33,258 nt of DNA from contig CAIOJR010000185.1 in NCBI GenBank assembly GCA_903858685.1, forward strand, positions 1 through 33,258. Direction: 5' to 3'. The translations under genes were made by a program, and so were the position numbers. Source of the DNA: an uncultured Caulobacterales bacterium. Its GTDB lineage: Bacteria > Pseudomonadota > Alphaproteobacteria > Caulobacterales > Caulobacteraceae. The notes beneath the pieces were generated by a model, which was given only the letters and a program-made list of their open reading frames with translations, was not told the origin of the DNA and did not search any database. Positions 288 through 14,134 of this stretch are shown piece after piece. Numbering within the stretch: position 1 is the stretch's first letter; every line of letters starts with the position of its first letter.

Positions 288-1025
288 TTATCGCGCGACA
301 CCGGCGCCGCGAACCACCTCAAGTCTGTGGCCCCGGGTTTTGCGGACCAGGATCTGCGCCCGGTCGCGGGCTTCGATGATGTGGTCGCGCAGGTTGGGCA
401 GGTTGATCTGCGTCCAGACGCTGCGGCCAAAGACTTCCGCCTGGGCTTCGCTCATATGCCGGAACCGGGCGTAGAAGGACGAGGCGTCATGCTCGGCGGA
501 TCGCCAATAGGTCATGAAGCGCTGGGCGAACCAATCTTCGAGATCGGCCTCCGAAGCGTCCAGATAGATCAGAAGATCGACCTGATCGGCAATGGTGCGA
601 CCGTCGGCGAACGGGGAGAAGGCGAGTCCCTCGAGGATGACAATGTCCGGCGACTGCACAATGCGCGTCAGGGCTGGATCAATGTCATAGGTGATGTGGG
701 AATAGCCGGGAATGGCGGTCGGGCCGGTCCGCAGGCTGGCCAGCGCGGCAAAAAGCCCTGCAGCATCATAGGTTTCCGGGAAGCCCTTTCTCATGCCCAG
801 GCCGAGCCGGTTCAACTGATCATTGGGCAGGAGGAAGCCGTCCGTGGGCAGGGTCTCTACGCTCAGCGACCCGGAAAGGCGGGCGCTGAGTTGTTGGCAA
901 AGCGTGCTTTTTCCGGCGGCGACCGACCCTGTCAGTCCGATCAGCAACGGCCTTGTCTGCGCAGCGCGCGACAGGATCGCGGCGGTGAGGGCGTCGAGCG
1001 CGGCGGCGTTGTCAGTCTGGCTCAT
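288..1025 (-). CDS. coaA: Type I pantothenate kinase-like protein (compact CoaA)
   Basis: Predicted cytoplasmic P-loop kinase that phosphorylates pantothenate, the first step of coenzyme A synthesis. Visible signs are a Walker A motif GSVAAGKST (about residues 33-41), a DGFLLPN segment followed by KGFPETYD, a YSHITYDI segment, ILEGL and a C-terminal WTQINLPNLRDHI, all in the order seen in CoaA. ATG at 1025 is chosen because CoaA similarity begins just after it; the frame stays open upstream to 1304 but that part looks like noise. At 245 aa it is clearly shorter than the usual roughly 310-320 aa, with the N-terminus and a segment after ILEGL reduced. A related P-loop kinase with another small-molecule substrate is possible. 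It is divergent from the operon beginning at 1170. Confidence 0.75.
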   Translation of the reverse strand: MSQTDNAAALDALTAAILSRAAQTRPLLIGLTGSVAAGKSTLCQQLSARLSGSLSVETLPTDGFLLPNDQLNRLGLGMRKGFPETYDAAGLFAALASLRTGPTAIPGYSHITYDIDPALTRIVQSPDIVILEGLAFSPFADGRTIADQVDLLIYLDASEADLEDWFAQRFMTYWRSAEHDASSFYARFRHMSEAQAEVFGRSVWTQINLPNLRDHIIEARDRAQILVRKTRGHRLEVVRGAGVAR

Positions 1026-1108: not shown

Positions 1109-1140
1109 TTGACAGGAAAAATGGAACATGTTCCAAATGT
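1109..1140 (+). promoter_or_regulatory. Predicted promoter region of the 1170-6513 operon
   Basis: A consensus -35 hexamer TTGACA lies at 1109-1114. A -10 is not well defined (the 17-nt spacing would put it around 1132-1137, where the match is poor). The region lies in the 144-bp gap between the divergent kinase start (1025) and the GTG at 1170, which is the only sizeable gap before the coupled operon. Confidence 0.4.
1122..1135. promoter_or_regulatory. Perfect 14-bp palindrome, candidate repressor operator
   Basis: TGGAACATGTTCCA is a perfect palindrome immediately downstream of the TTGACA box, where a repressor would block RNA polymerase. The operon's last gene encodes a TetR-family protein, the natural candidate to bind here. 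The size and symmetry fit a TetR operator; that this TetR binds it is inference. Confidence 0.5.
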
Positions 1141-1169: not shown

Positions 1170-1400
1170 GTGAGCCAGCTTTCCCGTGTGCGCCGATCTG
1201 TGCTGCCGCAAAAAGACGACACCTGGGCCGATATTGCCCGGCGTGAACTGGCTGATCTGGCTGAAGCTGACGCCGTGTCCGCGCTGCAAAGCTGGAACCT
1301 GCATGTGTTCATGCGCGCCACCATCACCACCGGAAGGCCGGGCAATCCGATCCTGCCCAGCGATGTGATCTTTGTCGAACCGCCGCTCGCGGCGGCATGA
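1170..1400 (+). CDS. Small protein with LysM-like features, first gene of operon
   Basis: A 76-aa protein with no signal peptide. From about residue 17 it reads DDTWADIARREL, then AVSALQSWNLHVFMR, then NPILPSDVIFVEPP. This is the layout of a LysM or tail-protein-X-like module: a 'DTW..IA' start, an 'N.H.F' centre and an 'ILP.D.I..' end. GTG at 1170 is preferred because GGAAGGAA lies 6-7 nt upstream. An ATG at 1128 in the same frame falls inside the promoter palindrome. Its stop overlaps the next start in ATGA (1397-1400), indicating translational coupling. The LysM resemblance is by eye and weak, and the function is unknown. Confidence 0.6.
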   Translation: MSQLSRVRRSVLPQKDDTWADIARRELADLAEADAVSALQSWNLHVFMRATITTGRPGNPILPSDVIFVEPPLAAA

Positions 1401-1648
1401 GCGGGGCCGTGATCAGCCGGGTCCAGCTCGGCGCCGCTCATGATGGCGATGCAGAGATGGTGCTCACCCTGCGCTTCGGGAATGGCGGCGAAACCCATGT
1501 CGCGCTCGATGGCTATGCTGTGGACCACCTGATGGCGGCCTGTGGTGCAACCGACGCGGACCGGCTGGTGGGCTTGGGATGGGAGCCGGTGCGCGATGCG
1601 CTGCAGGCTTCCTCCAATCGATACGCCGACACGGCGCCAAACCTATAA
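1397..1648 (+). CDS. Small conserved-looking protein, second gene of operon
   Basis: An 83-aa soluble protein without signal peptide or membrane segment. The middle reads VLTLRFGNGGETHVALDGYAVDHLM, suggesting alternating beta strands and then a helix; the tail GLGWEPVRDAL is probably helical. I do not recognise the family. The start overlaps the preceding stop (ATGA), and the stop is 17 nt before the amidohydrolase start. Its place between the LysM-like protein and three enzymes suggests an accessory or assembly role rather than catalysis. Confidence 0.55.
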   Translation: MSGAVISRVQLGAAHDGDAEMVLTLRFGNGGETHVALDGYAVDHLMAACGATDADRLVGLGWEPVRDALQASSNRYADTAPNL

Positions 1649-1665
1649 GAACAGGGAAAACGAAG

Positions 1666-3351
1666 ATGTATGATCTCGTCATCAGGAACGGCAATGTCGT
1701 CGACGGTTCAGGGCTTCCGGCCTATCGCGCCGATGTGGCGGTGAAGGATGGTCGCATCGTCAAGATCGGCCGGGTGAGCGAAGGGGCGCGTCGCGTGGTG
1801 GACGCCGCGGGCAAGGTCGTGGCCCCGGGCTTTATCGATCCGCACACCCATTTCGACGCCCAGCTTCTGTGGGACGGCTGCGCAAAGCCCGCCCTGTCGC
1901 ATGGCGTAACCACCATTGTGCCCGGCAATTGCTCCCTGTCCCTGGCGCCCTTGCGTGCAGAGCACCGGATGAAGCTGGTCGGCATGTTCAATCAGATCGA
2001 GGAAATGCCGCTCAAGGCGTTCCGCGACGGCGTGGTCTGGGACTGGGAGACCTTCGCCGAATATATTGCCCGCATCCGGAAGGGGCTGGCGATCAATGTC
2101 GCGCCTTTGGTCGGCCATTCGGTCCTGCGCCTTTGGGTCATGCGCGACGCCGCCATGGAGCGCACGGCCACGGACGCCGAGGTGGCGCAGATGCAGGCCG
2201 TTCTGCGTGAGTGTCTGGATGCGGGCGCGGCTGGCCTGTCGACCAGCTATGTTGACATGGACGAGCGGCTGCAACCCGTGCCCAGCCGCTATGCCGACGC
2301 CTCCGAGGTGGACGCACTCGCTAGTGTCCTGGGCGAATATGGCCGCATGTTACAGATCGTGCCGGAATTCTATGATGCGGACCTGACCATTGCGCGGCTG
2401 GATCAACTGGCCGAGCTGTCGCTGAAGCACAACATCCCGACCACCTTCTCCCCCCTGTTTGTCAATGCGGACAATATCGAGGCGGTCAATCGCGTCATGC
2501 GCCGGGTAGACGAGCAGTTTGATCGCGGCGCGCGCGTCTGGCCGCAGGTCCAGACGCGGCCTATCGACATCAGCTTCTGCTTCGCCGTGCCCAGCCTGCT
2601 CTTCATCCGCTTCCGCAGCTGGTACCGGATCATGCGGTTCGGCGCGCATGAGGAAATTCTGGCCGCCTTCCGCGATCCGCAAAACCGCCAGAAGCTGATC
2701 GCAGAAGCTGCGCCTCTGGCCGGCCTGTGGCCGCGTCTGGTGCTGCGTCATGTGAACACTGACGCCAACCGCCAATATGTGGGCAAGACCCTGGGCGAGA
2801 TCGGCGAGCTTCGCGGGGTCAGCCCGGTGGACGCCATGATCGACCTGTCGCTGGAAGAAGACCTGGACGCGCATTTTCTGGCTGCCGGAATGGGCCACAA
2901 TAATGATGCAGAGGTCGGGCGCCTGCTGAGCCATCCCCGCGTCCATGTCGGCGCCAGCGATGGCGGGGCCCACATCCTGTCCTTCTCCACCTATGGCGAT
3001 ACGGGCTATCTGCTCGGCCACTTCGTGCGGGACGTGAAGGCCATGAGCCTTGAAGCGGCGGTCAAGAAGGTCACCTCCGACACGGCCGCGATCTGGGGCA
3101 TTCCCGAGCGGGGCCTTTTGCAGACCGGCTATGTCGCCGACATGGTCGTTTTCGATCCCAAAACCATTGATCGGTGTGCGGAGGACTACGTTGGCGACGT
3201 GCCGGGCGACGGGTACCGCTATGTGCGCGACTCTTCCGGCGTCGAAGCGGTGTTTGTTGGCGGCGCTCTGGCCTGGTCGGCGGCGGAAGGCTATCAGCCC
3301 GCTCAGGGCCAGATCCTGCCGGGCGTGATTTCGGCGGGACTTGCGGCATGA
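1666..3351 (+). CDS. N-acyl-D-amino-acid deacylase-like amidohydrolase
   Basis: A 561-aa cytoplasmic protein of the amidohydrolase superfamily (Amidohydro_3 / D-aminoacylase branch). It shows MYDLVIRNGNVVDGSG at the N-terminus, the metal motif HTH (H60, H62), a GNC motif with C89 matching the metal-bridging cysteine of D-aminoacylases, and SDGGAH with D432. The usual SHxR and second-His segments are replaced: the matching stretches read QIVPEFYD and IPTTFSPLF. Substrate is therefore uncertain; an amide or cyclic amide is likely. ATG 1666 is chosen for the family's N-terminus and an AGGGAAA site upstream. Its stop overlaps the next start (ATGA, 3348-3351). Confidence 0.8.
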   Translation: MYDLVIRNGNVVDGSGLPAYRADVAVKDGRIVKIGRVSEGARRVVDAAGKVVAPGFIDPHTHFDAQLLWDGCAKPALSHGVTTIVPGNCSLSLAPLRAEHRMKLVGMFNQIEEMPLKAFRDGVVWDWETFAEYIARIRKGLAINVAPLVGHSVLRLWVMRDAAMERTATDAEVAQMQAVLRECLDAGAAGLSTSYVDMDERLQPVPSRYADASEVDALASVLGEYGRMLQIVPEFYDADLTIARLDQLAELSLKHNIPTTFSPLFVNADNIEAVNRVMRRVDEQFDRGARVWPQVQTRPIDISFCFAVPSLLFIRFRSWYRIMRFGAHEEILAAFRDPQNRQKLIAEAAPLAGLWPRLVLRHVNTDANRQYVGKTLGEIGELRGVSPVDAMIDLSLEEDLDAHFLAAGMGHNNDAEVGRLLSHPRVHVGASDGGAHILSFSTYGDTGYLLGHFVRDVKAMSLEAAVKKVTSDTAAIWGIPERGLLQTGYVADMVVFDPKTIDRCAEDYVGDVPGDGYRYVRDSSGVEAVFVGGALAWSAAEGYQPAQGQILPGVISAGLAA

Positions 3352-4310
3352 GCCTTCCCGCCGTCACCCAGCGCCGTATTCGCACCAACGGGATCGAACT
3401 GAACATCGCCGAGGCGGGCGAGGGGCCGCTGGTGCTGTTGCTGCACGGCTTTCCGGAAAGCTGGTATTCCTGGCGTCACCAGTTCGCCCCCCTGGCAGCG
3501 GCGGGTTATCATGTCGTGGCGCCGGACATGCGCGGCTATGGCAAGAGCGACCGGCCACACCAGATCGAGGCCTATAATCAGGTTGAGGTGGTCAATGACG
3601 TGCTCGGACTGGTCTCGGCCCTGGGCTATGAGCAGGCGGTGGTGATCGGCCACGACTGGGGCGCGCCCACCGCCTGGGCCGCCGCATTGCACCATCCGCA
3701 GGTCTTCCGTGCCGTGGGCGCGCTGTCTGTGCCGTTCATGCCGCGCCTACCCGTCGCGCCCATGGCCATGATGCGGGCCGTCTTTGCGGGACAGTTCTTC
3801 TACCAGCTCTATTTCTTTGAACCGGGCGTGGCCGAAGCCGAGTTCGAGGCCGATATCCGCACGTCCCTGAAGAAATTTCTGGTCATGGCGGGCGGTGAGA
3901 CCGACCTGTCCAAGCTCGCGCCCAAGGCGGAGGGCGATGACATGCTCTCCAGCCTGCCCGATCCTGAGACCCTGCCCGGATGGCTGAGCGAGGTGGATCT
4001 GGACTTTTATGCGGCGGAGTTTGCGCGTTCGGGCATGCGTGGTCCTCTGAACTATTACCGCAATCACGACCTGACCTGGGAACTGACCGAGGGTGCGCCG
4101 CAACAGATCGCCCAGCCGGCCTTTTTCATCGCCGGGTCCAATGACGGGGTGGTCATGATGGCGGCGGCGGCGATCGAGGCGATGCCGCACTTCGTCACCG
4201 ACCTGCGCATCAATAAGATGATCCCGAACATCGGCCACTGGACGCAGCAGGAAGCGCCCGAAGCCGTCAATGGCGCCATCCTTGAGTTCCTGAAGGCCCT
4301 GGACGCATGA
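3348..4310 (+). CDS. Epoxide hydrolase-like alpha/beta hydrolase
   Basis: A 320-aa alpha/beta hydrolase fitting the soluble epoxide hydrolase family, which opens epoxides to vicinal diols through an aspartate nucleophile. Visible are the oxyanion motif HGFPES (from H33), the nucleophile elbow GHDWGA with D103, lid tyrosines around LNYYRNHDL, a GSNDG acid segment and the catalytic histidine H297 in NIGHW. No signal peptide, so cytoplasmic. Both ends overlap the neighbours in ATGA. The adjacent FAD oxygenase-like gene makes an epoxidation-then-hydrolysis pair plausible. Haloalkane dehalogenase is a related alternative, but the HGFPES/GHDWGA combination favours epoxide hydrolase. Confidence 0.82.
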   Translation: MSLPAVTQRRIRTNGIELNIAEAGEGPLVLLLHGFPESWYSWRHQFAPLAAAGYHVVAPDMRGYGKSDRPHQIEAYNQVEVVNDVLGLVSALGYEQAVVIGHDWGAPTAWAAALHHPQVFRAVGALSVPFMPRLPVAPMAMMRAVFAGQFFYQLYFFEPGVAEAEFEADIRTSLKKFLVMAGGETDLSKLAPKAEGDDMLSSLPDPETLPGWLSEVDLDFYAAEFARSGMRGPLNYYRNHDLTWELTEGAPQQIAQPAFFIAGSNDGVVMMAAAAIEAMPHFVTDLRINKMIPNIGHWTQQEAPEAVNGAILEFLKALDA

Positions 4311-5815
4311 GTGAAACCGTCGCCGTGGTGGGCGCCGGGATCGGCGGCCTGTGCACCGCCCTGTCGCTCGCGCCGACGGGACGCCACATCATCCTGCTCG
4401 ACCGCGACGGCCCGCCGCCGGGCGAGGACCCCGATGAGGTGTTTCACAACTGGAAGCATAATGGGGTGGGTCATCTGCGCCAGAGTCACGCCTTTCTGGC
4501 GCGGTTGCGCTCCATCATCAAGACAGAGCATCCGCGCCTGTTGCAGCAGCTTCTGGACACAGGCGTGCGCGAGCTGCCCTTCGAAGCCTTTCTGACCGAT
4601 GACCAGCGCAAGTCCTATCAGCCCGAGCCTGAAGACGCCGAGCTGACCATCATCACCAGCCGTCGCACGACGCTGGAACTGGTCATGCGCCGCTATGTCG
4701 AGACGCTGGAGAATGTCTCCATCCGGTCCAGTTTCCATGCGCGGTCCCTGTTGACCCGCAAGGGCGACGACGGGGTGATCGAGGTGCTGGGCGTGGCCGG
4801 CGAAGAGGACGGCGCCGCTACTGATCTGTATACTGATGTTGTGGTTGATTCATCGGGCAAGAATGGTTTCCTGATCGACCAACTGATCGAGGAGGGCGCA
4901 CCGATCCGCGAGGAAGGCGAGTCCGCCGGCATCCTCTATTTCACCCGTCACTACCGGCTTCGGCCCGGTCAGTCGGAACCGCCGCGCGAGGGCAGTCCGC
5001 CCGCCAGCGGAGATCTGGGCTTTTTGAAATTCGGCGTCTTTCCCGGCGACAATGGCTGTTTCTCCATCACCATCGCCATTCCCGAGGTGGAGATGGAGCT
5101 GCGCAAGGCGGTGCTGGACCCCGACATGTTCCACAACATCACCCTGCAGCTGCCTGGACTGGCGCTCTGGACCAGTGAAACGCGCTCAGAGCCTGTGGGG
5201 CGCGTGCATGGCATGGGCGACCTGATCAGCCGCTGGCGTGATCTGGTGGTGGAGGACAAGCCCGCAGTGCACGGCTACTTCGCCCTCGGCGACCTGTTGG
5301 TGCGGGCCAATCCCCTCTATGGCCGGGGATGCAGTTTTGCCGCGGTCGCAGCTCAGGCGCTGCGCGGCGCGCTCGACCATTCGACCGATCCGTCGGCGCG
5401 GCTGGTGGCGTTCCACAAGCGGGTCTGGGAGGAGCTTCGCCCCTATTATATCAACCAGCGCACCCAGGACCGGGCCGCCGTCAAGCGCGCGCGTGAGGCG
5501 CTGACCCCCGGCTTCCGCAAGACCTTCAGGCGCAGACTGATTGAGGGCTTTTTTGATCATGGCGTGCGGATCGCCATTCGCAGCGATGTACGCCTGTTGC
5601 GCAAGGCCCTGCGGGGCTTTCACATGCTGGAGCATCCTGACCGCTGGCTCGGCCGTCCGCAGACCCTGGCCAGGATCCTCGGCTACTGGTTCAGGGGACG
5701 CAAGAAGAACGCCGCCGCCTATCCGCCCAAACTGGGTCCCGGTCGTGCGGAGATGCTCAGCGCCTTGTCGATTGATGTCGAGGCCGATATTGCCCGCATC
5801 GCCCAGACGGCGTGA
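4307..5815 (+). CDS. FAD-dependent monooxygenase/epoxidase-like oxidoreductase
   Basis: A 502-aa flavoprotein. The N-terminus carries the dinucleotide-binding motif GAGIGG (residues 9-14), followed by ILLDRDG at the end of the second strand. A second FAD motif, ALGDLLVRANPLYGRGC, has D329 contacting the flavin. This fold is shared by flavin monooxygenases, epoxidases, flavin halogenases and geranylgeranyl-reductase-like enzymes. No transmembrane segment is evident, although the C-terminal 120 residues are basic and could associate with membrane. Start and stop are coupled to the neighbours. Paired with the epoxide hydrolase, an epoxidase role is attractive but not shown. Confidence 0.72.
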   Translation: MSETVAVVGAGIGGLCTALSLAPTGRHIILLDRDGPPPGEDPDEVFHNWKHNGVGHLRQSHAFLARLRSIIKTEHPRLLQQLLDTGVRELPFEAFLTDDQRKSYQPEPEDAELTIITSRRTTLELVMRRYVETLENVSIRSSFHARSLLTRKGDDGVIEVLGVAGEEDGAATDLYTDVVVDSSGKNGFLIDQLIEEGAPIREEGESAGILYFTRHYRLRPGQSEPPREGSPPASGDLGFLKFGVFPGDNGCFSITIAIPEVEMELRKAVLDPDMFHNITLQLPGLALWTSETRSEPVGRVHGMGDLISRWRDLVVEDKPAVHGYFALGDLLVRANPLYGRGCSFAAVAAQALRGALDHSTDPSARLVAFHKRVWEELRPYYINQRTQDRAAVKRAREALTPGFRKTFRRRLIEGFFDHGVRIAIRSDVRLLRKALRGFHMLEHPDRWLGRPQTLARILGYWFRGRKKNAAAYPPKLGPGRAEMLSALSIDVEADIARIAQTA

Positions 5816-6513
5816 TTGTGATGGATGACGGCGCGATCAGTGTCGGCGCGCTGGATGTCCGGCGTCGTGAACAGGCCAAGGCGGAGCGGCGCTCGCGCAT
5901 TGTGCGCGCCGCGCGCGACCTGATCCGCGAGACCGGCGACACCGATCTGTCCATGCGCATGATCGCCAAACGCGCCGATGTCAGCCTGACGACGCCCTAT
6001 AATCTGTTCGGATCGAAGCGCGCCGTGGTTCTGGCGGTGTTCGAGGATGAGCGCGACTTCGTGGTGCGCTTCAGTCGGTTGCAGGCGCAAAACGCTCTGG
6101 ACCGCATCTTTGACGCCCATGATCTGGGGATGCGGTATTTCATCGACGATCCGGACTTCTACAAGACCCTGTGGAAGGCGCTTCTGAACACCCAGGGCGC
6201 TGACTCTACGGGTCTGGCGACGCCGGAGCGACTGGAACGAAACCGGGCGGCCTGGCGTTCTCTGCTTGAGGCTGCGCAGGAGGAGGGCCTGTTGGCGGAC
6301 TCCGTTTCGTCCGACCTTCTGGAGCGGACCCTGTCCGCCTTTTCAAACGGATGCATGCTTGCCTGGGCCATGGACGCCATGCCGACCGAGGCTCTGGCGG
6401 CGAACACGGCTCTGGGATATGCGCTTGCCTTGAAGGGCGCGGCCACGCCCGCCGGGGCGGCTATCTTGCAGACCCGCATTCTTCGGTGTCAGGACGCGCT
6501 GGCCCGCCTCTGA
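5812..6513 (+). CDS. TetR-family transcriptional regulator
   Basis: About 233 aa. The N-terminal TetR DNA-binding domain includes RIVRAARDLIRETG, SMRMIAKRADVSLTTPYNLFG and SKRAVVLAVFE (residues about 25-75). The C-terminal helical ligand-binding domain is divergent. Possible starts are GTG 5812 (overlaps the previous stop as GTGA), GTG 5818 or ATG 5821; I list the overlapping one because the rest of the operon is coupled the same way. As the last regulatory gene of the operon it probably controls it, and the palindrome at 1122-1135 is the candidate operator. The ligand is presumably a substrate or product of the three enzymes. Confidence 0.85.
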   Translation: MIVMDDGAISVGALDVRRREQAKAERRSRIVRAARDLIRETGDTDLSMRMIAKRADVSLTTPYNLFGSKRAVVLAVFEDERDFVVRFSRLQAQNALDRIFDAHDLGMRYFIDDPDFYKTLWKALLNTQGADSTGLATPERLERNRAAWRSLLEAAQEEGLLADSVSSDLLERTLSAFSNGCMLAWAMDAMPTEALAANTALGYALALKGAATPAGAAILQTRILRCQDALARL

Positions 6514-6554: not shown

Positions 6555-7439
6555 ATGCCGCCCGGGCTTTTCCGATTCAAGGCGGCCTTCCTCGCCGCCT
6601 TGTCCCTGACGCTTTGCATCTGGGGAACCGCTCAGGCGCAGTCCATCCTGTTTGTCGGCAACAGTTTCACCTTCGCGGCCTATTCCCCGGTCTGGAAGTA
6701 TCGGGCCGCCAGCGTGACTGATCTGAACGGCGAGGGCGTCGGCGGGGTCCCGGCCCTGTTCAAGCTCTTCACCGACGAAGCGGGCCTTCACTTCGAGGTC
6801 AGTCTGGAGACCTCGCCGGGCAAGGATCTGCAGTGGCATATCGACAACAAGACCCCTTTGCTTGACCGGGCCTGGGATCATGTGATCCTGCAAAGCTACA
6901 GCACGCTGGACGCCCGGTCGCCGGGCGATCCGGCCAGTCTGGTTCGAACGACAGTGGTGCTGGCCAAACTGTTTCATGATCGCAATCCGGCGGTGGATGT
7001 CCGGCTCGATTCAACCTGGTCGCGGGCGGATCTGACCTATCTCCCCGCCGGTCACTGGTATGGGCGCCCCATATCGGCCATGGAGACCGAGCTGCGGGCG
7101 GGTTATGACAAGGCTGCGGCGGCGTCGCCCTATGTCCAGGCTGTCATTCCGGTCGGGGGCGCCTGGAACCGGGCGATCGAGACCGGATTCGCCGCCCCCA
7201 ATCCCTATGAGGGCATTGCGCCCGGCAAGGTCGATCTATGGGCGTTCGACCATTATCACGGCAGCACCTTTGGCTATTATATAGAGGCGCTGACCATATT
7301 TGGCAGCGTGACAGGCCTTGATCCAAGGTCGCTCGGTCCGAACGAGACGGCGGCAAAGGAACTTGGCCTGTCGCCCGCCCAGACCAGCGCCATGCAACAG
7401 ATCGCCTTTGATGAACTGGCGGCCCAGTCGAAGCGCTAG
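6555..7439 (+). CDS. Exported SGNH hydrolase-like protein
   Basis: A 294-aa protein with a signal peptide (about residues 1-28, ending TAQA) followed directly by SILFVGNSFTF, a block-I-like motif in which S37 would be the nucleophile. Near the C-terminus FDHYHGSTFGYY supplies a DxxH pair (D232, H235), matching block V of SGNH hydrolases. HVILQSYSTL resembles the central block. The substrate is unknown; acyl or acetyl ester cleavage is the family norm. ATG 6555 is preferred for its GGAG site and signal peptide. It lies 41 nt after the TetR gene, so read-through is possible. Its stop is only 3 nt from the stop of the convergent mannonate dehydratase gene. Confidence 0.65.
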   Translation: MPPGLFRFKAAFLAALSLTLCIWGTAQAQSILFVGNSFTFAAYSPVWKYRAASVTDLNGEGVGGVPALFKLFTDEAGLHFEVSLETSPGKDLQWHIDNKTPLLDRAWDHVILQSYSTLDARSPGDPASLVRTTVVLAKLFHDRNPAVDVRLDSTWSRADLTYLPAGHWYGRPISAMETELRAGYDKAAAASPYVQAVIPVGGAWNRAIETGFAAPNPYEGIAPGKVDLWAFDHYHGSTFGYYIEALTIFGSVTGLDPRSLGPNETAAKELGLSPAQTSAMQQIAFDELAAQSKR

Positions 7440-7442
7440 ACC

Positions 7443-8654
7443 TCACCAGTTAAACATGGAGCCGTCCTCCAGCCGGTTCACCGGCAGGCTGGCGGGGCTG
7501 TAGGGATATTTGGCGGCCAGCGCCTCGTCGATGTCCACGCCATGGCCCGGCGCCTCTCCGGGGTGGAGATAGCCGTCGCAGAAGCTGTAGGCGTGGGGGA
7601 ATACCTCGTCGGTCAGTTCGGTGTGGCGCATATATTCCTGAATGCCGAAGTTCGGCACCCACAGGTCGAAATGAAGGGCTGCGCCCATACAGGCGGGCGA
7701 TAGGTCTGTCGCCCCGTGGAAACCGGTGCGGACATTGTTCAATTCGGCCAGATGGGCGATGCGGCGCACATGGCTGATCCCGCCCGCATGGACGATGGTG
7801 GTGCGGATATAATCGATCAGTTGCTCGTCGATCAGTTGCTTGGCGTCCCACACGCTGGAGAAGACCTCGCCCAGAGCCAGAGGCGTGGTGGTGTGCTGAC
7901 GGATCAGCCGGAAAGAGGCCTGATTTTCAGCCGGTGTCACATCCTCCAGCCAGAAGGGGCGGAAAGGCTCCAGATCCTTGCCCAGCCGACCGGCCTCGAT
8001 CGGGGTCAGGCGGTGGTGGCTGTCGTGCAGCAGATGCACGTCCCAGCCCAGCGCGTCGCGCGCGGCGGCGAACAGCTTGGGCACTGTTGGCAGGTACTTG
8101 CTGGTCGACCAGACGTTTTCGGTGGGCAGGGCGGCGTCGGCGGGCTCGTAGAACAGCTTGTCCTTGGAGACGCCATAGGTGCTCTTCAGTCCGGGCACGC
8201 CGGTTTGCAGACGGATGGCCTTGTAGCCCATCTCCTGATAGCGCAGCGCTTCCTCGACGGTGTCCTCGATATTGGCGCCATTGGCGTGGCCATAGACCAT
8301 CACGCCCTTGCGGCTGGCCCCGCCCAGAAGCTGGTAGAGCGGCATATTGGCCGCCTTGGCCTTGATGTCCCAAAGGGCGGTGTCGACCGCGGCGATGGCC
8401 GACATGGTCACGGGACCGCGCCGCCAATAGGCGCCCCGATAGAAGAACTGCCAGATGTCCTCGATCTGGTGGGCGTCGCGGCCGATCAGGCTGGGGATGA
8501 TGTGATCCTGCAGGTAGGACACGACGGACAGTTCGCGTCCGTTCAGGGTGGCGTCGCCAATGCCGGTGATCCCCTGATCGGTCTCGATCTTCAGGGTGAC
8601 GAAGTTGCGGCCGGGGCAGGTGACGATGACCTTGGCGTTGGTGATCTTGAGCAT
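7443..8654 (-). CDS. manD: D-mannonate dehydratase (ManD, enolase superfamily)
   Basis: Dehydrates D-mannonate to 2-keto-3-deoxy-D-gluconate, the last step of the glucuronate branch encoded here. The 403-aa protein matches the ManD size, and its residues line up one position off the ManD active site known from Novosphingobium: R148, Y160, D211, H213, E237 and E263 (in IRLQTG, KSTYG, LLHDSHH, WLEDV and LGEVF). It is non-homologous to the Fe/Mn-dependent UxuA usually used for this step. ATG 8654 follows the uxuB stop by 5 nt with AGGA upstream; a TTG at 8663 is an alternative. Cytoplasmic, Mg2+-dependent by family. Confidence 0.93.
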
Positions 8655-8659
8655 CGAAG

Positions 8660-9949
8660 TCAATCCTGAGGAAGAAGCGCTGAGCGGTTTGGCATGGTGT
8701 TGAGAAGGGCGGCAATATCGGACGGCGTCGACTGGCCGCTATAGCGGCTCCAGGCCTGCGCTACCTGGGCCAGATGGTGAAAATCGCGGCCGTGCGCCTC
8801 ATTGGCGCGCAGCAGCGGATAGATGCGTTGATCGAGCTTTTCCGCGCCGTCCATGGCGATCTGGTCGAGCCGGTGGTCGATCATGGGGTTGCCAAAGCGG
8901 GCCAGAGTCCGGGTCCAGTATTCGCGCACCGGCAGTTCCGGCAGGGCGCTGGCGACCTCTTGTCGGATCATGGCGTCCAGAAACCGGGCGATCTGGGGAT
9001 CGGCCACAGCCTGACGCACAAGGACATGGCCGCGCGCCAGGCCCAGATAGGCCAGCGCCGAGTGGGCCGCGTTTAGCACATGCAGCTTCAACCTGCGCGC
9101 ATGGGCGACCGAAGCGGTCAGCTGGACCCCGACCGCACCCCAGTCGGGCCTGGGGGCGACGAAATGGTCCTCGATCACCCATTGCGCGAAAGGTTCACGC
9201 TGCACGCTGGCTTCGTCCTCCAGCCCGATGGCGGCGTCGACGCGCGCACGGCTTTCGGCCGTCGGGGCGGGCACGATGCAGTCCACCATGGAGTCTGGAA
9301 AGCTCGCTTCCCGCTCGATCCATGAGCTCAGGGCCGGGTCGATCCGCTCTGACAGCGCCAGGACGGCGGCGCGCAGGCGCTGGCCATTATCCATGACATT
9401 GTCGCAGCTGACGATGGTGAGCGGGCCGCCATGGCTGCGCCGACGCTGCGCCAGTCCGGCGCTCAGGGCCCCGATGGCCGAGAGCGGCGTCTCGGGGTGC
9501 GCCAGATCATGCGCGATCTGCGGATGGCTGAAATCCAGCGCCTCCCCCGCAAGGCAATAGCCCTTTTCGGTGACGGTCAGGGTGACGACCGTCGTGGTCG
9601 GCGCGGCGAGCGCGTCGAGCACGGCGCCGGTCTGCAGGGGCAGTGTCAACTGACGTCGAATCGCGCCGCAGACCCGGTATTGCGGCTCAGCGTCCAGTGT
9701 CTCGACCGTATAGAGGCCGTCCTGTTGCGCCATTGAGGCGGCAATATCGGGCTTTCGCATACTGACGCCGATAATGCCCCAGTCGCCGCCGCTGGCCTCT
9801 ATCGCATCCTCTGTGAAGAGGGCCTGATGGGCGCGGTGAAAGGCGCCAAGGCCCAGATGGACGACGCCGCAGCCCAGAGCGGCCAGATCATAGTCCGGTC
9901 GGCGCAGGCCGGGGCGCAGCTGGTCAAGGGTGGCGCACGACAGTCTCAC
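8660..9949 (-). CDS. uxuB: D-fructuronate reductase (mannitol dehydrogenase family)
   Basis: An NAD(P)-dependent long-chain dehydrogenase expected to reduce D-fructuronate to D-mannonate. The 429-aa protein has the N-terminal nucleotide-binding segment [15 protein letters not shown] (about residues 28-42), TVTEKGY, the SCDN motif and the family's catalytic K-x4-N-x2-H arrangement with K288, N293 and H296 in KLHVLNAAH. Start is GTG 9949, overlapping the uxaC stop as GTGA. Mannitol dehydrogenase and tagaturonate reductase (UxaB) share the fold; UxuB is preferred because mannonate dehydratase follows directly. Confidence 0.9.
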
Positions 9950-11395: not shown

Positions 11396-14134
11396 TTAGC
11401 GGTTGATCTCAATCGCCGAAACCAGCGCCTTGCCTGCGCTGGGATGGAAGCCCAGCTTCAGACGCCCGTCACTGACCGTGACGCTGAACTGGCGCTCCAG
11501 GGGCTTCAGAGCGCCGCCCGCTGCGGCTGTAATGTCCAAGGCGGTCAAGGTGGGCGCGCCATTGGCGGTGACGTCGAAGATCCGGGCGCCGACCACGTCT
11601 TCAGCCGGCGCGACAAAGCTCAGTCGCACATTATAGACCCCGTTCTCGACCGGGATGTCATAGCTGAAATCGCCCTCCCGGAAGCTGGCCAGAAGCTCTG
11701 GATCCTCCACGCCTGGCAGCAGCTTGGCGGGGCCCTTGGGGTCGGCCGGGGTGAGGGAAAAGCCCTTGGGCTTGATCAGGCCGGAGGCTTCTCCGCCAAC
11801 AAAGAAGGCGTCGGAGCCGAAGCGGCCTTTTGAGCTCTGCAGGCCCATCATGGCGCCGGAATCGATGCGGATATGGCTCGCAGCGTCCGGAGACAGGCGC
11901 CACGAGATCGCGTCCTGGACGGTCTTGTCGCCGAACTGGCCGCTCGCCTGCAGCCTGTTGTCGCCTTCGCTCAGCTTGACGTCGCGCCAGACGCAGACAT
12001 GGTTGTCGCAATTGTCCCGCACGCCGAGCGCGTGGCCATTGAGGCTGAGGCTTGTGCTCGGGGCGTTGGAATAGACCGATACGTCCGTGACGGGATAGGC
12101 GCGATCCACATAGCGTCGTCCGGTCAGGTAGACGACAGGCTCCGCCGACCAGTTGGCCTTATAGAAGAAGAAGGCGTCCTTCTTGACCTTGCGATCATAG
12201 GTGACGAGGCCCTTGGTGTTGATGTCCATGGCGTCGCCTTCGCGACGGATGGTCGTGGCGAAGTCGAACATGTTCCAGACCCAGGTCGCCCAAAGGTAAG
12301 GACGCTTCGAGAAGTCGGACCAGATCTGCTCGTGGACATAGCTCTCATAGCCTTCCGGCTGGGTGCGTCCGCGGAAGTCGGCGTGTCCGCCGGCAGGATT
12401 GTCCGTCTGCTGAGAAATCGCGCCGCCCGCGCCATATTCGCTGACCGATATGGCGAAACCCGGATGCTGGGCGTGGTTCTTGTCCAGATAGGGCGCTTCG
12501 GCGGCGGCCGGTCCGTAATACCAGCCGTAATAGCGATTGGCGCCAAAGACGTCGGTTATGCCCGCCACCACCGGCGGCTTGGCGCCCGGCAGTTCGGAAC
12601 GGTCTTCGCAACAGGTGGCCAGAGTGGTCGGACGGCTGGGGTCGACAGACTTGGCCAGGCCGTTCAGCTCCCGCAGCAGGGGACGGGGATCTGGCGCCTC
12701 GCCATCGGCGCGGCTGAAATCAACGCCGACCGGAGAGCCGAAATCGACCTCGTTGGCGATGCTCCACACAGCGACCGAGGCGTGAGCCATGTTCTGCTTG
12801 ATCAGCTCCGTCAGTTGCTGGCGCGCATTCGCGGTCAGCCCGTCGGTGGCGGTCATGCGGCCTGCGCCAAGGGTCCATTTGGACACCAGGGGAATCTCGT
12901 CCCACAGGATGAGGCCATAGCGGTCCGCCAGCTCATTCATATGCTGGCTCTGCTGATAATGGGCCAGGCGGATCGTATTGGCGCCCATTTCGCGGATCAG
13001 TGCGTAATCTTCCTCCTCATCGGCCGCTGAAAGCGCCCAGCCCTTGCCCTCCTTGTCCTGGTGGCGCGACACGCCGTGCAGCGCCAGATGCTTTCCGTTC
13101 AGGAACAGGCCCTTGTCAGGATCGATGCGGATGGTGCGAAGCCCATAGGCCTGATCCACCTGGTCGAGCACGCGTCCAGAGCGGCTGCGCAGTTCGCTCA
13201 CAAGTCGGTAGAGATAGGGGTCTTCAACGCCCTGCCACAGGCGGGGCGCGGCGACGGTGAAGGCCTGATCTGCGCTTGCGCTCTCGCCGGGCTTCAGGCT
13301 GATGGGTGTGGAGGCGGCGGCCACCGTCGCGCCCTTGGCGTCGATCAGGCGCGTCACCACCGAGCCGGACAGGGGATGGCGTCCGTCATTGACCAGTCTG
13401 GCGGTCAGGCGCACATGGGCGCCCTTGTCGTCAATGGCCTCGGTGGTCGGATAGACGCCTGCGCCGCCGTGATCCATCATGTCGAAATGGGCGGCCTTGG
13501 TGGTGATCAGGCTGACCGGCCGATAGAGCCCGCCATGCACGAAGAAGTCTCCGGCCAGAGGCAGGGTGTCTGCCGTGGCGCCGCCCGGCGCCGGCACGGT
13601 GTTGTCCACCTTCACGACAAGCAGATTGTCCGCACCGGGACGAAGGGCTGCGGTGGCGTTCAGGCGGAAGCGTGAAAAGCCGCCCTTGTGCTCGCCCAGC
13701 AGGACGCCGTTCAGCCAGACCTGGGCTATGCGGCTGGCGGCGTCGAACTGCAGCCAGGCGTCGCGGTTCTTCAGGCCGGCGGCCGGGGTGAAGTGCAGCC
13801 GATACCAGCCCACGCCCTGGGTCGCATTGACATTGTCGGCCCGGTTGATGTGATCGGGTTGGGCGGTCATGTAATAGCCGACCCGGTTCCAGCTGTGGGG
13901 CACGCTGACGGTTGGCCAGTCGGCGTCAGAAAATCCAGGCTGTTCCACGCCCGTTGCGGCCTGATCCAGCTTGAACCGCCAGCCAGACGACAGGACGTCA
14001 ACCGTGCGAGCGCTTGGCTCCTGCACCGCGACGGCTGAGGACGAGCTTGTCGGCGCAGCGGGTGCGGCGAGGGCGGCAAGGGGAAGGGCTGTCGCGCAGA
14101 ACGCGCCTGCAAGCGCTCGTGTCGCCATTCTCAT
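11396..14134 (-). CDS. Exported GH2 beta-glycosidase, probably beta-glucuronidase, with C-terminal malectin-like domain
   Basis: A 912-aa glycosidase with a signal peptide (about residues 1-23). Order: sugar-binding GH2 domain (residues 45-215), immunoglobulin-like domain (220-330), TIM barrel (335-660) and a C-terminal malectin-like region (about 765-912). The acid/base is E462 in SIANEVDFG and the nucleophile is E566 in SVSEYGAG. N639 and K641 in INTKG fit the N-x-K motif that binds the glucuronate carboxylate in beta-glucuronidases, although related beta-galactosidases can carry a similar segment. Placement first in the uxaC-uxuB-manD operon favours glucuronidase. GGGAGA precedes ATG 14134. 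It probably acts in the periplasm on material brought in by the TonB receptor. Confidence 0.85.
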   Translation of the reverse strand: MRMATRALAGAFCATALPLAALAAPAAPTSSSSAVAVQEPSARTVDVLSSGWRFKLDQAATGVEQPGFSDADWPTVSVPHSWNRVGYYMTAQPDHINRADNVNATQGVGWYRLHFTPAAGLKNRDAWLQFDAASRIAQVWLNGVLLGEHKGGFSRFRLNATAALRPGADNLLVVKVDNTVPAPGGATADTLPLAGDFFVHGGLYRPVSLITTKAAHFDMMDHGGAGVYPTTEAIDDKGAHVRLTARLVNDGRHPLSGSVVTRLIDAKGATVAAASTPISLKPGESASADQAFTVAAPRLWQGVEDPYLYRLVSELRSRSGRVLDQVDQAYGLRTIRIDPDKGLFLNGKHLALHGVSRHQDKEGKGWALSAADEEEDYALIREMGANTIRLAHYQQSQHMNELADRYGLILWDEIPLVSKWTLGAGRMTATDGLTANARQQLTELIKQNMAHASVAVWSIANEVDFGSPVGVDFSRADGEAPDPRPLLRELNGLAKSVDPSRPTTLATCCEDRSELPGAKPPVVAGITDVFGANRYYGWYYGPAAAEAPYLDKNHAQHPGFAISVSEYGAGGAISQQTDNPAGGHADFRGRTQPEGYESYVHEQIWSDFSKRPYLWATWVWNMFDFATTIRREGDAMDINTKGLVTYDRKVKKDAFFFYKANWSAEPVVYLTGRRYVDRAYPVTDVSVYSNAPSTSLSLNGHALGVRDNCDNHVCVWRDVKLSEGDNRLQASGQFGDKTVQDAISWRLSPDAASHIRIDSGAMMGLQSSKGRFGSDAFFVGGEASGLIKPKGFSLTPADPKGPAKLLPGVEDPELLASFREGDFSYDIPVENGVYNVRLSFVAPAEDVVGARIFDVTANGAPTLTALDITAAAGGALKPLERQFSVTVSDGRLKLGFHPSAGKALVSAIEINR

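Follow-up and report, generated by a model that had tools for sequence, protein, structure and literature searches.

The D-aminoacylases hydrolyse N-acyl-D-amino acids; besides HxH, Cys and Asp, their barrel has two further histidines, those of the SHIR and SHHK motifs, which bind metal. In the alpha/beta epoxide hydrolases the functional residues are a nucleophilic aspartate, an HGFP motif, two lid tyrosines and an Asp-His pair. Class A flavin monooxygenases, to which the epoxidases MonCI and Lsd18/LasC belong, have one FAD Rossmann motif, lack a separate dinucleotide domain and use NAD(P)H. For the polyether epoxidases, the motifs RKGxPQxRHxHxLWSxGA and AFNPxxGHGMSxxA are given in PMC10560226. 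KstR is a TetR-type repressor of mycobacterial lipid and sterol genes, and the motif given for it in PMC1995591 is the palindrome TnnAACnnGTTnnA.

Here we consider a probable operon of six genes in a window of 33,258 nucleotides (the whole stretch of DNA analysed) from an uncultured Caulobacterales bacterium. Its amidohydrolase (AH) shares the Amidohydro_3 fold family with D-aminoacylase and N-acyl-D-glutamate deacylase (PDB 1m7j, 3gip), its FAD monooxygenase (FAD) appears to have the FAD-binding layout of the flavin epoxidases, and the KstR palindrome precedes the operon. We suggest, with a probability of roughly one half, that the six genes make up a single operon for catabolism or detoxification under the control of a repressor, in which FAD would epoxidise a lipid-like alkene, the epoxide hydrolase (EH) would hydrolyse the product, and AH together with two small proteins, S1 and S2, would form a three-part hydrolase.

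Gene layout and the predicted epoxide enzymes

Six open frames in the order S1-S2-AH-EH-FAD-TetR occupy positions 1170-6513 of the plus strand (Table 1). The arrangement reported in the initial annotation was confirmed on the sequence: four junctions overlap by 4 nt and one is a gap of 17 nt, the junctions in gene order being ATGA, the gap, ATGA, ATGA and GTGA (-4, +17, -4, -4 and -4 nt). The stoichiometric expression considered likely there from this arrangement is a different matter, as overlaps alone cannot show it. A GGAAGGA stretch lies shortly upstream of the GTG start of S1. Searches of Pfam, NCBIfam and the sequences in the PDB upheld the labels of AH, EH, FAD and TetR. S1 and S2 of the window matched no Pfam or NCBIfam family. 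In comparison with two close relatives (L031, L054), S1 and S2 have dN of 0.15-0.17 and dS of 0.76-1.33; since the dN/dS ratio is about 0.12-0.20 and the homologues keep their position, we consider both to be real genes.

Table 1. Coordinates of the operon, its promoter elements and the adjacent genes in the window
Feature	Position	Strand	Remarks
Pantothenate/uridine-type kinase	288-1022	-	divergent from the operon; panK_bact model 203 of 235 bits
Possible -35 element, TTGACA	1109-1114	+	sequence reading, consensus match only
Probable TetR operator (putative), perfect palindrome TGGAACATGTTCCA	1122-1135	none	box upstream of S1 in relatives
S1, 76 aa	1170-1400	+	GTG start; matches no Pfam family; modelled as weakly LysM-like
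S2, 83 aa	1397-1648	+	small-protein family
AH, 561 aa, Amidohydro_3 protein	1666-3351	+	related to D-aminoacylase
EH, 320 aa, alpha/beta epoxide hydrolase	3348-4310	+	EphA-like
FAD monooxygenase, 502 aa	4307-5815	+	MonCI/Lsd18-like
TetR-family regulator, 233 aa	5812-6513	+	GTG start; ATG at 5821
DUF4886-like protein	6555-7439		after TetR; below the Pfam cut-off
Protein resembling D-mannonate dehydratase by eye	7443-8663	-	

The flanks of the cassette vary from genus to genus. The DUF4886-like gene was not accepted as a seventh member, since TetR is followed by other genes in the relatives that were examined. The gene that follows it may be the start of a sugar-acid region, which seems to have no connection with the operon.

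The best match of EH is EphA (PDB 5cw2), over the full length (E 3.5e-79), and D103, H33-P36, Y155, Y237, D266 and H297 are kept in all 20 sequences compared; judged by these residues, EH is an epoxide hydrolase. The only strong matches of FAD among PDB sequences are MonCI (E 1.5e-13) and Lsd18/LasC (E 1e-9), the next one being at 0.15, and a GxGxxG-type start and a GD motif are present in FAD (31 sequences). Neither of the two polyether motifs given in PMC10560226 is matched by FAD, and the window carries HNGVGHLRQSHAFLARLR and RANPLYGRGCSFAA instead; on this ground we did not assign FAD to the polyether-type biosynthetic enzymes. EH-like genes of 42-44% identity adjoin FAD or lie near it in four loci (L018, L019, L051, L058), which fits an epoxidation followed by hydrolysis. 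Thus, the sequence of epoxide and diol formation proposed in the initial annotation seems reasonable, as the only strong solved relatives of FAD epoxidise alkenes and the residues of EH are those of an epoxide hydrolase.

The amidohydrolase and its likely small partners

AH contains an Amidohydro_3 domain (Pfam E 2.5e-30), and its best solved relatives are D-aminoacylases. It keeps the HxH pair, the GNC cysteine, the VGH histidine and the SDG aspartate of these enzymes; His60, His62, Cys89, His151, Asp432 and His436 are conserved both in the S1/S2-type AHs (14/14) and in distant paralogues (5/5). In a profile alignment with 3gip, the histidines of its SHIR and SHHK motifs fall on the AH segments LQxVPEF and FSPLF, where AH has no conserved histidine; its proposed role on an amide or lactam is therefore unproven. 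AH was not filed as a D-aminoacylase. Three other histidines are conserved in the S1/S2-type AHs, namely His79 and His411 (14/14 each) and His255 (13/14), and one of them might replace a lost ligand.

S1 (15 members) matched no Pfam family at E up to 10, LysM included. Its AlphaFold2 model is beta-alpha-alpha-beta (pLDDT 72), which would agree with a LysM fold. Many of the top Foldseek chains were LysM, at weak scores (E 0.67 and up), and VIA-align gave Z up to 4.6 at rmsd 2.2 over 47 aligned residues, with LysM in the title of 9 of 31 rows; other rows (CERK1, CEBiP, YkuD, SleL, Kbp) presumably contain LysM domains as well. These results suggest a LysM-like character of S1 and do not amount to proof. 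The S2 model (pLDDT 87.5) has three strands followed by helices, and neither Foldseek nor VIA-align gave a convincing fold match. Several enolase-superfamily chains stood high in Foldseek (E 0.04 and up), and an enolase-type capping domain was rejected, as in VIA-align these chains were not first, the leading ones being RuvB-like DII and OB/SSB chains (Z 5.2 at best). Pfam matches of S2 to BT_MCC_alpha (0.0054), Cyt-b5 (0.056), P_proprotein (0.14) and tify (0.17), each in one of 14 members, were taken as chance, as was the single match of each of the S1 and S2 profiles to PDB sequences (E 2.1 and 1). A comparison of S1 with S2 gave no support for a common origin.

Among 298 Sphingomonadaceae genomes, S1 was found in 21 and AH (E <= 1e-120) in the same 21; the chance of this overlap is about 1e-32, a figure that ignores relatedness. 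FAD (E <= 1e-60) was found in nine, eight of which are among these 21. In each of the three scans only a part of the first-look candidates was scored. The remaining 13 of the 21 genomes carry a more divergent S1, with no match to FAD or EH within 16 kb, and the gene order is AH-S1-S2 in 12 of them and S1-S2-AH in one. On the megaplasmid pTomTYG64a of Sphingobium sp. TomTYG64, AH and S1 form one protein of 637 aa, annotated as an amidohydrolase, with S2 next to it (L119:12001-13914; AP027328.1 508094-510007). AH-like proteins also occur with no S1 or S2 nearby: one of the 21 genomes has a further AH (42% identical), and the same holds for a relative from Embleya (36%) and two AHs on Sphingobium/Novosphingobium plasmids (34% and 31%).

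Based on co-occurrence, synteny and the natural fusion, S1 and S2 are likely to be steady, hitherto undescribed partners of AH. The two small proteins, which had been left with no role, thus have acquired a likely partner in AH, through the pairing in 21 genomes and the AH-S1 fusion. The AH-S1-S2 trio is more interesting than the six-gene set as a whole.

Several further observations concern the surroundings of these genes. A gene of cluster c8 lies near the trio in 9 of the 13 loci without FAD, and the one scanned member (L104) matches Coq4; Coq4-like proteins are encoded near sphingomonad AH genes at L104:8480-9313, L119:17503-18366 and L121:7769-8635, also near an AH without S1/S2. In L112, the gene calls place a thiolase gene overlapping S1 by 1 nt. 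Tandem AH paralogues occur just upstream of S1 at L045:215-4636 and L132:1610-5998, and in L045 the paralogues are separated by a beta-keto-acid cleavage enzyme. At L133:4593-8734, a distant AH paralogue stands directly 5' of a distant FAD homologue (32% identity) with no S1 or S2, accompanied by a double SnoaL-like protein and then acyl-CoA dehydrogenases.

Distribution of the cassette and the putative operator

The cassette occurs in the same order in Caulobacterales, Hyphomonadaceae and Sphingomonadales. We considered 28 FAD loci from a scan of named genomes, read by tblastn and gene calling; these are not independent cases, since several are closely related or nearly identical to one another. 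Among named genomes, the nearest relatives of FAD come from metagenome genomes labelled uncultured Caulobacterales. All six genes on one strand and in this order were observed in ten loci: two from Caulobacterales, five from Hyphomonas, Hyphomonadaceae or Henriciella, and three from metagenome bins labelled Acidobacteria or Sulfopaludibacter. Only TetR is absent in four (L038, L039, L043, L045; Sphingorhabdus, Novosphingobium, Polymorphobacter). EH is absent from the cassette strand in three, L032, L051, which has an EH of 44% identity on the opposite strand, and L053, where the contig also stops short of TetR. Contig ends cut four loci (L037, L046, L047, L058), and in L041 EH and FAD stand together, with S1-S2-AH at another place in the genome. 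The other six loci (L048, L049, L050, L052, L056, L057) have FAD without AH, S1 or S2 in the available sequence, which for L049 includes just 451 bases upstream; a whole-genome search of the L048, L050 and L052 genomes did not find S1. Beyond the 28, the sphingomonad locus L115 also contains all six genes.

Thus, the six-gene set is not indispensable, as L032 and L053 lack EH and four cassettes have no TetR. The cassette is modular, consisting of S1-S2-AH, of EH with FAD, and of TetR with a putative operator. Of the coupled module initially described, frequent co-location is borne out and a single fixed unit is not (3+2+1 being the better description).

In wider sampling, S2 was found in at least 3 of 385 genomes of the class and S1 in at least 6 of 398 genomes of the phylum, all of them members of the taxonomic order to which the window belongs; both are lower bounds, since Sphingomonadaceae later found to have S1 were missed, and here too only a part of the first-look candidates was scored. 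Among 72,556 plasmids, the sole match of S1 was in a Sphingobium, and nothing on the six-gene set was found in the open-licence PubMed Central literature. The pathway is spread patchily over the alphaproteobacteria.

The palindrome TGGAACATGTTCCA lies downstream of the TTGACA element. We tallied the box TnnAACnnGTTnnA in the 20 cassettes linked to FAD in which S1 could be seen, the window included. Within 130 nt upstream of S1, it is present in 14 of the 15 cassettes with TetR, and the one miss (L040) is one base off. Of the five cassettes with no TetR match, four lack the box; the fifth, L053, has it, and its contig ends before TetR. The box was found in none of 15 S1 loci without FAD, and mononucleotide shuffles contained it in at most 0.4% per locus. 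The exact 14-mer TGGAACATGTTCCA occurs once, at the operon promoter, in each of four of the six genomes of the window's genus, and is absent from the other two, where no close FAD was found. With one mismatch allowed, additional sites appear, at about the same frequency as with the reversed control; one such copy, TCGAACATGTTCCA, lies in the window at 12264-12277 inside a long reverse-strand reading frame and is probably due to chance. The presence of the box goes with the TetR gene, and TGGAACATGTTCCA is probably the operator of the cassette's TetR. The regulator itself scores 30.3 bits with the KstR model, below the cut-off of 280, and its best NCBIfam model is ScbR, also far below the cut-off (34.7 of 150 bits).

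Alternative explanations and comparison with known systems

If the operon is catabolic or detoxifying, TetR would bind TGGAACATGTTCCA just after the -35-like TTGACA and keep the operon off by autorepression, until released by an effector, probably a lipid-like one. FAD would then epoxidise a C=C bond in a hydrophobic compound and EH would open the epoxide to a diol, as their relatives and active-site residues suggest. AH, S1 and S2 would act as one hydrolase, in which AH would provide the barrel that houses the catalytic centre, and the LysM-like S1 and S2 would presumably complete or cap it. The products would probably enter CoA-dependent breakdown, in view of genes of CoA pathways that lie close to the trio or to FAD in L099, L112, L051, L048 and L133; in L048, an AMP-binding (acyl-CoA-ligase-like) gene follows FAD. 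The occurrence of FAD without AH, S1 and S2, in 6 of the 28 loci and in one of the nine FAD genomes of the 298, argues against this reading.

As to the trio itself, a tentative possibility is a three-part amidohydrolase of a new kind, a barrel minus two usual histidines, in which the LysM-like and the beta-beta-beta-alpha subunits would help to form or close the active centre, and which would catalyse something other than N-acyl-amino-acid hydrolysis, e.g. the cleavage of a lactone or a C-C bond in an oxidised lipid. Somewhat unlikely, in our estimate, is that S1 and S2 of the same operon are not subunits and rather serve as a chaperone, metal-delivery or stability pair, AH being catalytically complete alone. 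Such an AH would be consistent with HxH, Cys89 and Asp432 in 14/14 sequences, with the extra His255 (13/14) and His411 (14/14), which might substitute for the missing histidines without help from S1/S2, and with the AH paralogues of 29-36% identity that have no S1 or S2 nearby; the natural AH-S1 fusion and the fact that in the 21 genomes S1 never occurs apart from an S1/S2-type AH point to subunits.

The one-operon reading has also to be weighed against two independent pathways, AH-S1-S2 and FAD-EH, that share a promoter by chance or merely for the sake of regulation. This we consider improbable: 8 of the 9 genomes with FAD belong to the 21 with AH and S1, and L133 has a distant AH paralogue directly upstream of a distant FAD homologue, although EH-FAD is separate from S1-S2-AH in L041, 13 of the 21 genomes have AH-S1-S2 without FAD, and six loci have FAD only. 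About as improbable is a biosynthetic cassette whose product would be a lipid or signal carrying an epoxide or a diol, resembling the polyether epoxidases in their clusters. The best solved relatives of FAD are indeed biosynthetic epoxidases and ScbR is the best, if low-scoring, model for TetR, but the polyether motifs do not match FAD, there is no synthase among the six genes, and degradative CoA enzymes lie beside several relatives.

The analysis links two families of small proteins, neither of which has an entry in Pfam, to a specific partner and to a role that can be tested. It also marks a subgroup of amidohydrolases, near proteins named D-aminoacylase in databases, with a possibly different activity, and the probable operator offers a route to the inducer and hence to the substrate of the pathway.

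Compared with the described systems, AH, unlike D-aminoacylase (1m7j, 3gip), is accompanied by S1 and S2. EH keeps the catalytic residues of the EphA-type enzymes (5cw2) and sits in a probable operon with an FAD monooxygenase. FAD differs from MonCI and Lsd18/LasC by a signature of its own: GVGHxRQSHAF and NPLYGRGCSFA vary little among 31 sequences. S1, in contrast to LysM domains, has no Pfam match, being a small stand-alone protein or one fused to AH. Finally, the exact operator-like site is present once per genome here, while KstR serves dozens of promoters.
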